From the NCBI GenBank assembly GCA_947491305.1, contig CANLIL010000011.1:1-62266 (forward strand): 62,266 bases of DNA. The letters are read 5' to 3'. Positions 35,781-41,414 of the stretch are shown in pieces. The stretch comes from Flavobacteriales bacterium (GTDB lineage Bacteria > Bacteroidota > Bacteroidia > Flavobacteriales_D > Crocinitomicaceae). The position numbers and the translations under genes were made by a program. Positions within the stretch are counted from its first letter, which is position 1, and every line of letters begins with the position of its first letter. Below the pieces are notes generated by a model. The model was given only the letters and a program-made list of their open reading frames with translations. It had not been told where the DNA came from and ran no database searches.

Positions 35781-38552
35781 ATGAAAATATACCAATGGTC
35801 CATTCTTCTCGTTTCTTTTAGTTTTGTTTCATTATCATTTGCTCAAAAGAAAGAAATTAACGCAACAGTTTATGCGCAATGGAAAAAAAATGAAAATCAA
35901 CAAATCAGTCCAAATGGTAGATATATTTCCTATGAAATCAATCCACTTTTTGGCGATGGGTTTGTTTATTTATACGATACTGAATCAGCAGTTTTAGATT
36001 CTTTTCCGAGAGGAAAACAAGCAGGGTTCTCTTTCCAAAGTGATTATTTTGTCTATAAAATTGTTCCTGGTTATGATACCTTAAGAACCTGCGAATTAAA
36101 AAAAATTGACAAGAAAAAATGGCCAAAAGACTCACTTGGAATTATTGTTTTAAGTACTAAAAATCAACGAAAACTATCAGATATTAAGTCATTTGAATTG
36201 GGTAAAGAACATAATTTTCTTTCCTATTTTAAAAACAGTGACGAGCTTTCCAAAGCAATACCTGTAAAAAAGAAATGGTGGAAGAAATCAAAAAAACCAG
36301 TAAAGGCAATTCAGTCAGACGGAACGGCATTGACCATTCTTGAACCAATTTCGAATTTTTCTAAAGCTTGGTTACATGTTACCAATTGTGAACTTTCAAA
36401 AAATGGAACGTATGCAACGGTAACAATGCATCAAAAAACTAAAAAAGATAGTTATCAGTTGGATTTGTTTGAGATTGCACTTCAAAAAACACATGAAATT
36501 ACACAGCAACAAACAGCGATTCCTTCGGTTGTTTTTAGTGATAATCAAAAACATTTAGCCTATTTATCAAGTCAAGATACTTCCGCACTAAAAAAGTATG
36601 ATTTAACCTTAATTACACTTGATTCATTGACTGCAAAAGCAGCAAATGCTTCAAAAAAAATCGTGCTATCGGATTCCTTAAAAACAATTTCGATGCACCA
36701 AAATCCTGTCTTTACATTAAATGGAAATCTTCTTTATTTTGGCATCAATGACAAACAACCAATCCCCGAAAAAGATACCTTATTAGAATCTGAGAAAGCC
36801 CATTTAGATATTTGGCATTACAAAGATTTACGCATTCAACCACAGCAATTGGTACAATTAAAACAAGATGAAAAACGTTCAGAATTAATGGTGTATTACC
36901 TTCATAAAGATCTCATTGTGCCACTTTCAAATGACACATTAAATGTTGCAATTGTAAAAGACCTTCATGCAGATTATTTGTTAGGATCTGTTTCGTATCC
37001 ATATGAAATTGAATACCAATGGGAAAGTGCGCACCGAAAAGACCATTATATGGTTTCATTGAAGGATGGCTCAACGAAATTGCTTGCAAAAGGCGTCGCT
37101 TTCGATGGAAAGTTGTCGCCTAAAGGGAAGCATTACACGTATTTTGACTCCAAATCAAAAAAGTACATTCACCTCGATCCATTGACAATGAACGAAATGT
37201 GTTTGACCTGCGCTCAACCTTCCATTAATTGGCAATCTGATATCAATGGGATGCCGATGGATGCGGACCCGTTTGGAATCATTGGTTATTCAAGAAATGA
37301 AGATTCCGTCTACATTCAAAGTGAAAAAGATGTGTGGATATATTCTTTTTTATCGCAAAAATTAGTGTGTCTTACAGAAGAACTTGGCGTTCGAAATCAA
37401 CAAGAAATAGCGCTGCGTTTATGGGAAAACGATAGTGTGTTTATCGATCGTTCCAATGTATATTTTTATGGATTTGATCAATTGACGAAAGGTTTTCATT
37501 TGTATGATTTTGATGACAAACAAGGGTTAAAAAAGCTGCATTCTGCCAACAGTTCATTTGTTCAGTTACTTCGTTCGCCAAATAAAAAGACGCTATTGTT
37601 GCGTCAATCAACACTTGAAGCGTATCCTGAAGTGATGTTTACAACAAACAATTTTTTGTCCCTTCAAACAATTTCCAAAACAAATCCACAACAAGCAGAA
37701 TACAATTGGGCAACAGTGGAATTAGTAAAATGGAAATCGTATGATGGAATTCCTTTGGAAGGCTTGTTTTATAAACCAGAAAATTATGATGCAACAAAAA
37801 AATACCCTTTAATTTTGTATTACTATGAATTAAATTCAGATAATTTATTCAGTCATTCTGCGCCAAAGCCAACTGCATCTATTATTCATCCAACAGAATA
37901 TGCTTCAGCTGGTTATTTGGTTTTCATTCCAGACATTCGTTATACGGCAAAAGGTCCTGCAAAATCAGCCTACAATTCCATAATGAGTGGCGTTGACTAT
38001 TTGTTAAAAACTGTTCCTTCAATTGATTCAACGCGCATGGGATTGCAAGGTCAAAGTTGGGGCGGATACCAAACGGCTCAATTAATAACCATGACAAATC
38101 GTTTTAAAGCTGCGATGGCTGGTGCGCCAGTTTCAAATATGACTTCAGCTTACGGAGGAATTCGATGGGGAGCTGGAATAAATCGCCAATTTCAGTACGA
38201 ACGCACGCAAAGTAGAATTGGAAAAACTTTATGGGAAGCGCAAGAAAAATACATTGAAAACTCGCCTCTATTTCACGTTCCAAAAATTCAAACTCCTTTA
38301 TTAATTATGGCAAATGACAAAGATGGTGCGGTTCCATGGTACCAAGGAATTGAAATGTATACTGCAATGCGCCGTTTAAATAAGCCTTGTTGGATGTTGA
38401 ATTACAATGGCGACGACCATAATTTAACCAAAATGGCAAATAAAATAGATTTAAGCATCAGAATGCGTCAATTTTTTGATCATTATTTATTGGGAAAACC
38501 AGCTCCGAAATGGTTGCTTGAAGGAGTCCCTGCTTTGGAGAAGATTAAATAG
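35781..38552 (+). CDS. Secreted prolyl-oligopeptidase-family (S9) serine peptidase
   Basis: 923 residues. Signal peptide ending LSFAQ (about 22). N-terminal propeller region (about 40-640) and C-terminal alpha/beta-hydrolase domain. Catalytic triad: S759 in GQSWGGYQT, D848 in KDGAVPW, H880 in GDDHNLT. Likely a periplasmic or surface dipeptidyl- or oligopeptidase. It is longer than DPP4-type enzymes because of an insertion around residues 165-180 rich in lysine and tryptophan. Last gene of the operon beginning at 33685. Confidence 0.9.
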   Translation: MKIYQWSILLVSFSFVSLSFAQKKEINATVYAQWKKNENQQISPNGRYISYEINPLFGDGFVYLYDTESAVLDSFPRGKQAGFSFQSDYFVYKIVPGYDTLRTCELKKIDKKKWPKDSLGIIVLSTKNQRKLSDIKSFELGKEHNFLSYFKNSDELSKAIPVKKKWWKKSKKPVKAIQSDGTALTILEPISNFSKAWLHVTNCELSKNGTYATVTMHQKTKKDSYQLDLFEIALQKTHEITQQQTAIPSVVFSDNQKHLAYLSSQDTSALKKYDLTLITLDSLTAKAANASKKIVLSDSLKTISMHQNPVFTLNGNLLYFGINDKQPIPEKDTLLESEKAHLDIWHYKDLRIQPQQLVQLKQDEKRSELMVYYLHKDLIVPLSNDTLNVAIVKDLHADYLLGSVSYPYEIEYQWESAHRKDHYMVSLKDGSTKLLAKGVAFDGKLSPKGKHYTYFDSKSKKYIHLDPLTMNEMCLTCAQPSINWQSDINGMPMDADPFGIIGYSRNEDSVYIQSEKDVWIYSFLSQKLVCLTEELGVRNQQEIALRLWENDSVFIDRSNVYFYGFDQLTKGFHLYDFDDKQGLKKLHSANSSFVQLLRSPNKKTLLLRQSTLEAYPEVMFTTNNFLSLQTISKTNPQQAEYNWATVELVKWKSYDGIPLEGLFYKPENYDATKKYPLILYYYELNSDNLFSHSAPKPTASIIHPTEYASAGYLVFIPDIRYTAKGPAKSAYNSIMSGVDYLLKTVPSIDSTRMGLQGQSWGGYQTAQLITMTNRFKAAMAGAPVSNMTSAYGGIRWGAGINRQFQYERTQSRIGKTLWEAQEKYIENSPLFHVPKIQTPLLIMANDKDGAVPWYQGIEMYTAMRRLNKPCWMLNYNGDDHNLTKMANKIDLSIRMRQFFDHYLLGKPAPKWLLEGVPALEKIK

Positions 38553-38612: not shown

Positions 38613-38700
38613 GTTTTGAGTTGAAGGTTTTGAGTTGAGATTTATACATTACAACGATTCATTCTTAAATTCCTTCATTCCTTCATTGTTTAATTCCTTC
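38613..38700. repeat. Short direct repeats between convergent genes
   Basis: GTTTTGAGTTGA occurs at 38613-38624 and 38627-38638; ATTCCTTC occurs at 38669-38676, 38677-38684 and 38693-38700. The 199-base spacer 38553-38751 holds only this simple-sequence material; no clear terminator is visible for either flanking gene. Confidence 0.6.
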
Positions 38701-38751
38701 ATTAGTTAGTCATAAAGTCTTTAAATCCTTCAATCTTAAAATCAAAAAAAA

Positions 38752-38997
38752 CTACTGATTGCATGCACAACTTTCACAGGCTTCTTTGGAAGTAAAACCA
38801 ACAGGAGAACAGCCGCTGTAACCAATTAATCCACACGTATTTGTTCCTTGATTGTAAAACCAAGATTCAAAATAAGCGGCACACGTTGTACCTGTTTCAG
38901 GGGTTTCTAAACATTTAGCTTGTTGACTATTCGTGCAGTCTTTTGTACAGCTATAACAACAAAAAACTAAAGCAATACTAGCAATTAAACGTTTCAT
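38752..38997 (-). CDS. Small lipoprotein with a Kunitz/BPTI-like domain
   Basis: 81 residues. Signal peptide with lipobox-like CYSC (C17). Mature domain cysteines C29, C39, C55, C63, C74 and C77/C79 follow the Kunitz order; spacing 10, 16, 8, 11, 3-5 against BPTI 9, 16, 8, 13, 4. The aromatic core SWFYN (45-49) matches RYFYN of BPTI, and GYSGC (59-63) with F68 then C74 matches VYGGC...F...C. By alignment the reactive-site P1 residue is A40 and P1' is A41. The start ATG overlaps the TGA of the TonB-dependent receptor gene (ATGA). Kunitz domains are rare in bacteria. Whether it inhibits proteases is unknown. Confidence 0.75.
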   Translation of the reverse strand: MKRLIASIALVFCCYSCTKDCTNSQQAKCLETPETGTTCAAYFESWFYNQGTNTCGLIGYSGCSPVGFTSKEACESCACNQ

Positions 38998-41414
38998 TTT
39001 TGGCGTAATTTAAAGTCAATTTTATAATAGAAAATGGGTAAAAATCCAAGTTGTTGTTTGATCGCAAACGGATCAGCAGAAGGATCTTTTAAATTGGGCG
39101 CATACGCTAAGCTCAGGAAGTTTTGCGTATTTAAAAGATTTACTAAATCCAACCCGATTTCATGCGTAGATTTTATCGAATTGTATTTCCAACTAATTTT
39201 TAAGTCTGCTCTAAAATAGTCTTTAAACTGACGATCGTTGAACAACGAATCTCTAAAAATTACTTCGTTGTACAGTTTTGATTTTTCAACATCTGCATAT
39301 CCGTAGCGTCTGCCTCCTGCAACCGTAATTTTTATTCCTAATGAGATGATTTGTTTATCACTTATTTTAAACTCTTTACCAGCCAATAAATTAGCCACAT
39401 AATTTCCGTTGTAAGAGGTGTTGCGAGTTATCCCATCACTTCCTTTGTAAGTAGATTGATAATATGTTCCAGAAAACAAGAAAAAGAATGATTTATCAAA
39501 GTATTTTTGAACCGTTAATTCAATCCCATAATTTGTTCCTGTTCCAGTATTTTGAAGTGAGTCAGGGAAAAAACGTTGGAATCCACCGCCCATATTTATC
39601 AATGAAAATGAGGATGGTGTAACCGTTACAGGAATGTTGTATAGGTATTGGTAATACAGTTCGCTTCGTACATTAAATCCTTTGTTAAATGACTTCTCAT
39701 ATCCAATTCCAGTATGTAAACTCCGGGTAAAATCCATGTTTTTGTTGTGGTAGATTTTTGCTCCGTTTTGATCAAGTTTGTGATAGGTATACGTGTACAA
39801 AGGTTGCATTCCACTGTGCATTCCAGCTCCAGCAAAAATCGATTGATTTTTATTCATTTTATACTTCCATCCTAAACGAGGCTCAACGATACTTTTACTG
39901 TTGCTCAACGTGAAGAATTGCGCATGCAGTCCTGCTGTAAAATCCATTTTTTCTGAAATTCTAACCTTCCATTGTGCAAATGGTTGAACCAACATCGCTG
40001 TACCTTTATAATCCCAACGAACCACAAAATTATTATCTGATACCAATTGTTTTGCTGAATCGATTTGATTCATGAAGTAAAAATCTGCGTTCATTCCAAC
40101 TTTCAATAAATGACGTTTATTGAATTTATGATTCGCACTGAAGTAAGCACTTGCTTTTGTAGTAGCAAAACTATAACCCATTAATGGTTTGATGGAATCA
40201 ATTCGAATGGTATTGTCAGGTTCAATTGCACGCCATAAATAATTATGATTAGAATGTTGTTCATCGTAAGCTAATGAAACCGTTGTTGTAATAAATGTTT
40301 TTTCAGAAATTGATTTTTTAAAGTTCAGCCCTGTAACACCCATTGATGTTCCAAAATACTGGTCTCTGTCTCCTTCACCGTAAAATTCTTCGGAGTACTT
40401 TTTTTGATCAGAAATTAATATTTCAATTTCACTTTTTCCACCAATTCCATAAAATGAAAGCGCGCCACCTTTTTTCAATAACCAATTAAATTTAAACGCA
40501 AGATCGCCATAAACTGGAACAGCATCTGTTCCTAATTTAATTCCAATTTGCTTAAACATACTCAAGGTAGAATAGCGTCCCATCACCAAATAACTCGAGC
40601 GTTTTGATTTACTTAATGGTCCTTCTGCTAAGAATTCAGTTCCTAAAACACCAAATTGCCCAGTAAATTCATGTTGATTTGTGTTACCGTTGCGCAATTT
40701 TAAATCAAAAACACCGGATGTACTGTTTCCATATTCAGCTGGAAATGCACTCATAAAGAAATCTGAATTACCAAGTATTTTGTTGTTTAAGACAGAAACA
40801 GGGCCGCCCGTACTCCCAGAAATTGCAAAGTGTGAAGGATTCGGAATATCTACGCCTTCGATTTTCCAAACGACACCAAGCGGAGAATTCCCACGGATAA
40901 TAATGTCATTTCTAGAATCATCCGCACCTTGAACACCTGCAAAATTAGAAGCCATACGCGCTGGATCCATTCGCGAACCAGGATAGCGGTTCGTTTCTTC
41001 CACGCTAAATTGTTGCGCTGAAATCACCGCTAATTCATTGATAACTTGTCCTCTTTTTCTTGCTACAACTTTGATTTCTTTCACTTCTGTGTAGCGTTCT
41101 GTCATTGGAACATTGGCAATGGTTTCTCGACCAGAATTCACCTCTATCGTAATGATTTTTACTTCGTATGCATTCATTGAAACTTCAAGTTGGTATTTTC
41201 CTACCGGAATATTTTCCAACACAAAAAGTCCATTATTATCGGTGATTGTACGAAGAATTTTTGTTGTATCTTCCAAATAAACCGTGATTTTTGCCCCAAT
41301 TAATTGAAAATTGGTTTCGTTGTCATAGATTTTTCCTCTTACATTTTGCATCGGTTGCGCCCAAGCTGAAAAAACAATAAATAAAATGATAATGGGTAAA
41401 AAAATACGTTTCAT
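38994..41414 (-). CDS. TonB-dependent outer-membrane receptor
   Basis: 806 residues. Signal peptide ending FSAWAQ (about 19), carboxypeptidase-regulatory-like N-domain (about 24-105: GKIYDNETNFQLIGAKITVY ... VPVGKYQLEVSM type), plug domain (about 135-235, with DIIIRGNSPLGVVWKIEGV), then a 22-strand barrel to FFYYKIDFKLRQK. Imports or binds an unknown ligand using TonB energy. There is no SusD partner; instead the Kunitz-like lipoprotein is translationally coupled to it. ATG 41414, -7 box at 41460-41467. Confidence 0.93.
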   Translation of the reverse strand: MKRIFLPIIILFIVFSAWAQPMQNVRGKIYDNETNFQLIGAKITVYLEDTTKILRTITDNNGLFVLENIPVGKYQLEVSMNAYEVKIITIEVNSGRETIANVPMTERYTEVKEIKVVARKRGQVINELAVISAQQFSVEETNRYPGSRMDPARMASNFAGVQGADDSRNDIIIRGNSPLGVVWKIEGVDIPNPSHFAISGSTGGPVSVLNNKILGNSDFFMSAFPAEYGNSTSGVFDLKLRNGNTNQHEFTGQFGVLGTEFLAEGPLSKSKRSSYLVMGRYSTLSMFKQIGIKLGTDAVPVYGDLAFKFNWLLKKGGALSFYGIGGKSEIEILISDQKKYSEEFYGEGDRDQYFGTSMGVTGLNFKKSISEKTFITTTVSLAYDEQHSNHNYLWRAIEPDNTIRIDSIKPLMGYSFATTKASAYFSANHKFNKRHLLKVGMNADFYFMNQIDSAKQLVSDNNFVVRWDYKGTAMLVQPFAQWKVRISEKMDFTAGLHAQFFTLSNSKSIVEPRLGWKYKMNKNQSIFAGAGMHSGMQPLYTYTYHKLDQNGAKIYHNKNMDFTRSLHTGIGYEKSFNKGFNVRSELYYQYLYNIPVTVTPSSFSLINMGGGFQRFFPDSLQNTGTGTNYGIELTVQKYFDKSFFFLFSGTYYQSTYKGSDGITRNTSYNGNYVANLLAGKEFKISDKQIISLGIKITVAGGRRYGYADVEKSKLYNEVIFRDSLFNDRQFKDYFRADLKISWKYNSIKSTHEIGLDLVNLLNTQNFLSLAYAPNLKDPSADPFAIKQQLGFLPIFYYKIDFKLRQK

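Follow-up and report, generated by a model that had tools for sequence, protein, structure and literature searches.

Known Kunitz proteins and inhibitor lipoproteins in bacteria

Kunitz/BPTI domains (Pfam: PF00014, which we take to be MEROPS family I2) have, to our knowledge, been studied almost wholly in animals. In BPTI, the aromatic core reads RYFYN and the turn VYGGC, and successive cysteines lie 9 (C1-C2), 16, 8, 13 (C4-C5) and 4 (C5-C6) residues apart. SmCI (PDB: 4bd9), presumably animal in origin, holds three Kunitz-like stretches in one chain, the first of which ends in CxCN, and is, according to its PDB title, a carboxypeptidase inhibitor. Small inhibitory lipoproteins have also been described in Bacteroidota, where a comparison is offered by the potempins of Tannerella forsythia, which are, as far as we know, not Kunitz proteins. 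These are reported to work alike, as small protease-inhibiting lipoproteins, but to be encoded beside their targets, the KLIKK proteases (PMC7296668). Kunitz domains themselves are already known from bacterial records, as in the F6W77 protein deposited under Acinetobacter baumannii, whose Leu-P1 domains inhibited elastase in vitro; it is described as secreted, with five classical six-cysteine Kunitz domains, and its abstract, Results and Discussion mention no lipid anchor (PMC11511053).

Here we describe a small Kunitz-domain protein encoded in the window, by which we mean the whole 62,266-nucleotide stretch of contig CANLIL010000011.1 of a Flavobacteriales bacterium (Bacteroidota; GCA_947491305.1). 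The protein resembles the Kunitz/BPTI family in exceeding the cut-off of the Pfam profile, in its cysteine order, aromatic core and YxGC turn and in its Ala at P1', but differs from BPTI in being a predicted bacterial lipoprotein with an extra cysteine pair and a non-basic P1. Among the titles listed from the open-access literature, none dealt with Kunitz lipoproteins in Bacteroidota, nor did these listings show a description of a lipoprotein branch that combines additional cysteines with a non-basic P1; we regard it as a variant within a family that Pfam already recognises. A patchy but conserved bacterial branch of this kind would open inhibitor-protease arms races between microbes to study and would bear on the origin of the Kunitz frame, and the analysis corrects a tempting reading of the neighbouring receptor as the partner of the protein.

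A small gene on the minus strand of the window

The small gene lies at 38752-38997, where a sequence-only reading of this DNA had correctly placed it, leaving the minus strand unstated. It is real: for the three pairs formed by the window and its two near relatives, dN/dS in the mature part of the protein is 0.12, 0.07 and 0.04, which indicates purifying selection. The TGA that ends the receptor-like gene upstream and the ATG of the small gene run into each other as ATGA, an overlap also noted in that reading; on its 3' side, the small gene faces a convergent gene of the S9 peptidase family, found at the same position in loci L044 and L045. The features discussed below are:

38752..38997, minus strand, gene of the small Kunitz-domain lipoprotein, 81 aa, stop codon included (open reading frame, PF00014, dN/dS)
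38994..38997, minus strand, ATGA formed by the receptor gene's stop codon and the Kunitz gene's start codon, the same in the two near relatives (G016 and G025)
38994..41414, minus strand, gene of a TonB-dependent-receptor-like protein, 806 aa, upstream and overlapping (CarboxypepD_reg over cut-off)
35781..38552, plus strand, gene of an S9 prolyl-oligopeptidase-family protein, convergent neighbour, context only (PF00326, 80.4 bits)
38947..38997, minus strand, signal peptide and probable lipidated cysteine, residues 1-17, ending FCCYSC (by eye)
38935..38937, minus strand, extra cysteine C21, candidate partner C77 or C79 (co-occurrence with the CxC end)
38767..38913, minus strand, Kunitz core, C29 to C77, with the PF00014 match at residues 29-76 (Pfam, family profile against the PDB, cysteine comparison)
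38875..38883, minus strand, predicted reactive-site triplet C39-A40-A41, P2-P1-P1' (cysteine spacing to BPTI; P1 variable, flanks nearly invariant)
38761..38769, minus strand, CxC end C77-A-C79 (C77 and C79 invariant in 38/38)

Between the small gene and the convergent peptidase gene, 'ccttcatt' units are repeated at 38658-38712. A scan for promoters and terminators was uninformative (promoter-like stretches: 8, with 12.2 in shuffled sequence; terminator-like stretches: 4, with 2.0 in shuffled sequence), PADLOC matched neither the Kunitz gene nor the receptor gene, NCBIfam gave no match for the small protein, and none of the 25 stretches of the viral collection that matched a pattern was a relative.

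Membership in the Kunitz/BPTI family

Judged from its sequence, the small protein belongs to the Kunitz/BPTI family. PF00014, the profile against which the sequence-only reading had proposed to check it, matches residues 29-76 with 28.4 bits, above the curated cut-off of 21 (E = 1.9e-6), and a six-frame search of the 2.53-Mb genome with the same profile returns this gene (E = 4.6e-6) as the sole match at E <= 10. In 14 control genomes searched in six frames, 5 had a match at E <= 10 and none exceeded the cut-off, so that the likeness goes beyond chance. Compared with the PDB by phmmer, the protein matches SmCI best (2.4e-6), followed by boophilin (2.3e-5) and entries of BPTI (from 3.9e-4); a profile built from 28 family members, window protein included, again places SmCI first (8.6e-18), ahead of boophilin (1.6e-12) and TFPI (6.5e-12). 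With this profile, 89 distinct PDB sequences pass 1e-3, and among the 60 of them listed we take every name to denote a Kunitz-domain protein.

All 28 aligned family members, the window protein being one, match PF00014 at E <= 0.01. The Kunitz cysteines, whose conservation in homologues had been named as a second check, are invariant in 28/28 of them and in all 38 sequences of the window type, and W46, G62 and F68 are likewise invariant across the 38. Together with a signal peptide that by eye ends in Ser-Cys, the Pfam match, the profile-to-PDB search and the cysteine conservation bear out the original description of a Kunitz/BPTI-like lipoprotein. AlphaFold2 models built from only three sequences per alignment are of low confidence (mean pLDDT 47.4 for the full length and 55.3 for residues 20-81), and Foldseek found zero matches at E <= 10 with the second, low-confidence model (residues 20-81, three sequences); since prediction from three sequences was not confident, the Kunitz assignment is one made by sequence comparison.

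A probable lipid anchor

A lipobox cysteine, C17, follows the signal peptide by eye, and at least 90% of the 28 aligned family members share it; locus L047 lacks it. The protein is probably anchored to a membrane by lipid. In Capnocytophaga canimorsus, the reported consensus for surface export is K-(D/E)2 or Q-A-(D/E)2 (PMC5080379), and the window sequence C17-T-K-D-C, with a single acidic residue, departs from it. Because the K-(D/E)2 motif is half present, surface exposure is uncertain.

Cysteine architecture and departures from BPTI

The cysteines C29, C39, C55, C63, C74, C77 and C79, the aromatic core SWFYN (45-49), the GYSGC turn (59-63) and the first intervals of 10/16/8 are all as the sequence-only reading described them. 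It had passed over C21, which brings the mature domain to eight cysteines, and the probable lipid cysteine C17. Counted from C29, the cysteines stand at 0, 10, 26, 34, 45, 48 and 50, with C21 at -8 and C17 at -12. Intervals differ from those of BPTI at C1-C2 (10 vs 9), C4-C5 (11 vs 13) and C5-C77 (3 vs 4); in homologues the first intervals are 9-10/16/8 and the later ones shorter than in BPTI, so that the Kunitz spacing is kept in part.

For comparison we assembled 71 Kunitz proteins. Of these, 38 are of the window type, and 7, likewise small, make up a second type; 24 are larger and look secreted, and the remaining 2 come from the phylum sample. The search of the order had given 61 places, from which four weak ones were left out (the second place in G031, and those in G237, G250 and G259); also left out were L052, where a 353-aa protein that lacks the Kunitz cysteines is matched weakly, the partial L118, and repeat loci of one gene, such as L018 (a duplicate of L051), L024, L035 and L041. 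A CxC end is present in all 45 window-type and second-type small proteins and in 0/26 of the rest. An extra cysteine at most 10 residues before C1 occurs in 44 of the 45 CxC-ending proteins (the exception is L057), and within the window type, window included, 37/38 have it 6-9 residues ahead of C1; among the 26 proteins with other ends, 5 have a cysteine before C1, by eye in the signal peptide, and none has one in the mature part. This co-occurrence, in counts uncorrected for relatedness, suggests a fourth disulfide that would join the N and C termini, from C21 to C77 or C79. With the Kunitz pairing 1-6, 2-4, 3-5, C29 would likewise have two candidate partners, C77 and C79.

Several departures count against reading the domain as an inhibitor. 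Most of the 38 window-type sequences, the window's own among them, have a primary loop C1-C2 of 10 residues (9 in BPTI), and C4-C5 spans 11 rather than 13. Gly at position 36, presumably the counterpart of BPTI G12, is replaced in 18/38 window-type sequences, and the position of BPTI F33 holds I, K, T, Q, R or V. The stretch corresponding to BPTI 39-44 also departs.

Predicted reactive site

By cysteine register to BPTI, we take A40 to be P1, in agreement with the alanine aligned to P1 in the sequence-only reading. Among the 38 window-type sequences, window included, P1 is Q in 16, M in 9, A and L in 4 each, E in 2, and F, Y and H in 1 each; Lys or Arg occurs in none. P1' is Ala in 37/38, and C39 and A41, which flank P1, hardly vary. 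Exchange of P1 on a fixed frame is a pattern known from inhibitors, and an almost invariant P1' Ala beside a changing P1 fits a reactive site.

Between close homologues, the counts suggest that P1 is among the faster-changing columns. Among pairs of 85% identity or above, P1 leads the 53 columns, differing in 15/30 pairs (10/21 at 90%), and at the 75% level it comes second; the pairs are non-independent, and their variability at P1 is therefore suggestive only. Parsimony on four close clusters gives 4 changes at P1, a shared second place after the 5 changes of column 69; over the whole tree, 12 changes fall on P1, which ranks 12th of the 53 columns. On these two ranks, we rejected the idea that no site varies more than P1. 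As P1 is, moreover, Ala in the window and both of its nearest relatives, its hypervariability is moderate. Met (ATG) and Gln (CAA/CAG) alternate at P1 in otherwise similar genes, an exchange that needs at least two base changes.

Proposed function and its alternatives

On balance, and with somewhat better than an even chance of being right, we read the protein as a membrane-tethered, standard-mechanism inhibitor of a serine protease that is not trypsin-like and has a small neutral S1 pocket. After removal of the signal peptide, C17 would be lipidated, and a short linker (18-28) would carry a single Kunitz domain (29-79), which would probably sit at the outer membrane and be closed by the extra N-to-C-terminal disulfide. 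The loop around C39-A40-A41 would offer Ala as P1 and inhibit competitively by the standard mechanism, and, if P1 Ala is a guide to the target, this would be a chymotrypsin-fold serine protease of an elastase-like or alpha-lytic-like kind. Its likely role would be to protect the cell surface against the proteases of competing, predatory or grazing organisms. A broader proposal is more tentative, and we hold it to be possible but doubtful: that the eight-cysteine Kunitz inhibitors of Flavobacteriales form a lipid-anchored family, with a P1 that diversifies in an arms race with the secreted serine proteases of predators or competitors, forming a surface anti-protease shield on an animal-type frame.

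The protein could instead regulate a secreted or periplasmic serine protease of the cell itself, as potempins do for the KLIKK proteases in Tannerella, an explanation we consider unlikely. The genome encodes two S1-type proteins over the PF00089 cut-off, one HtrA-like (L119, named by eye) and one secreted (L120), an open frame of 762 aa whose C-terminal tail looks sorting-like by eye and which is confirmed as trypsin-like; an endogenous target is thus possible. Potempins likewise speak for this reading, as small lipoproteins reported to be encoded directly ahead of the target protease (PMC7296668). Against it, the Kunitz gene has no S1 protease gene adjacent to it, and its convergent neighbour encodes an S9 peptidase, which would be an unusual target for a Kunitz domain. 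Moreover, the Kunitz gene is missing from most relatives, being present in only 31 of the 240 searched, and is therefore not a core regulator.

That the Kunitz frame has been retained for something other than inhibition, for instance to bind a ligand or to adhere, seems improbable. Some venom Kunitz proteins are non-inhibitory, and altered loop lengths, the loss of several canonical residues and an acidic P1 in 2/38 window-type sequences all speak for such a role; against it stands the P1' Ala, almost invariant while P1 varies, which fits the reactive site of the inhibitor we favour.

The neighbouring receptor-like gene

The upstream protein, read earlier as a TonB-dependent receptor, is best called TonB-receptor-like on the basis of its sequence matches. 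Pfam Plug matches 2/5 aligned receptor members but not the window's own, and the receptor profile finds 6ytc, titled 'TonB-dependent receptor', at positions 25-117. Compared with the PDB by phmmer, the window's receptor protein alone gives zero matches. For the pairs of the trio, receptor dN/dS is 0.024-0.026. Because the Kunitz gene sits at the end of the receptor gene, the two may be co-expressed in the trio clade by way of the ATGA overlap.

The pair of receptor and small gene, which the sequence-only reading had proposed to look for in relatives, is found in the two close ones (G016 and G025) and is unseen elsewhere. Within the genus, receptor matches at >=66% identity occur in 23/26 genomes, four of them as fragments, and the Kunitz gene in 3/26, several of these genomes being incomplete. 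In the flanks (~1.5 kb, less in one) of 16 complete genus receptor orthologues outside the trio, the Kunitz gene appears in 0/16, and the receptor stop is mostly followed by what looks, by eye, like the 3' end of a convergent gene. In a comparison of 33 other genomes with a Kunitz gene, 28 from the family and 5 from other families of the order, a receptor homologue is present in 32; it is adjacent to the Kunitz gene in none and lies within about 20 kb of it in 3. The pairing is thus kept in one small clade, and linkage to the receptor as a general feature was rejected. The three nearest homologues lie about 1.1 kb (G033), 3.8 kb (G301) and 15 kb (G064) from the Kunitz gene; those in G033 (L050) and G301 (L056) are paralogues with about 41% identity to the window's receptor, and their proximity is possibly chance, each genome having six such receptor matches.

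That the small protein serves the neighbouring receptor as an accessory, whether plug, lid or guard acting with that one receptor, accordingly finds no support in the 33 other Kunitz-bearing genomes, none of which has an adjacent homologue, or in the 16 orthologues, whose flanks of about 1.5 kb (less in one) hold no Kunitz gene. We think it quite improbable, even though the ATGA overlap persists in three genomes despite dS of 0.5-1.5 between their receptor genes, and paralogous receptors lie near the gene in G033 and G301. The receptor neighbourhood is probably just where this Kunitz copy landed.

Distribution and other Kunitz groups

The small Kunitz protein represents a real gene family in these bacteria. 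The gene is found in 3 of the 26 genomes of the genus (own and 25 others, several incomplete) and in 31/240 of the family; in the order, 59/299 genomes match PF00014 at E <= 0.01, 55 of them over the cut-off, and in a sample of the phylum 6/395 match at E <= 0.001, the window's own included. The general rarity of Kunitz inhibitors in bacteria, from which the sequence-only reading had started, thus holds for the phylum sample. Across loci, the gene occurs in many contexts; in three genera (L055, L056 and L057) it stands beside or near a gene for a sigma-factor-like protein followed by one for an anti-sigma-like membrane protein, both by eye.

Two other kinds of Kunitz protein were collected with it. 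A second bacterial group, mostly from family f9 (L012-L017, L019-L027 and L080-L083; e.g., L080:6780-7538), consists of secreted-looking open frames of 140-405 aa, most above 240, with one canonical domain (9/16/8/12) near the N terminus, Glu (16/24) or Phe (8/24) at P1 and, by eye, a C-terminal region common to many. The seven small lipoprotein-like proteins of the second type (L074-L079 and L051) have PKYYF- and WGGC-like motifs and Lys, Arg, Phe or Glu at P1, and by eye look more like the animal consensus than the protein of the window does; L114, one of the two others from the phylum sample, resembles a small lipoprotein by eye.

Kazal-like proteins were also seen. In the window's own genome, there is one weak Kazal match, below the cut-off and with two stops inside. 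A small Kazal-like protein is encoded about 2.2 kb from the Kunitz gene at L055:9649-9897 (by eye only), and another directly downstream of the Kunitz gene at L082:8094-8336, where PF00050 passes with 22.2 bits.
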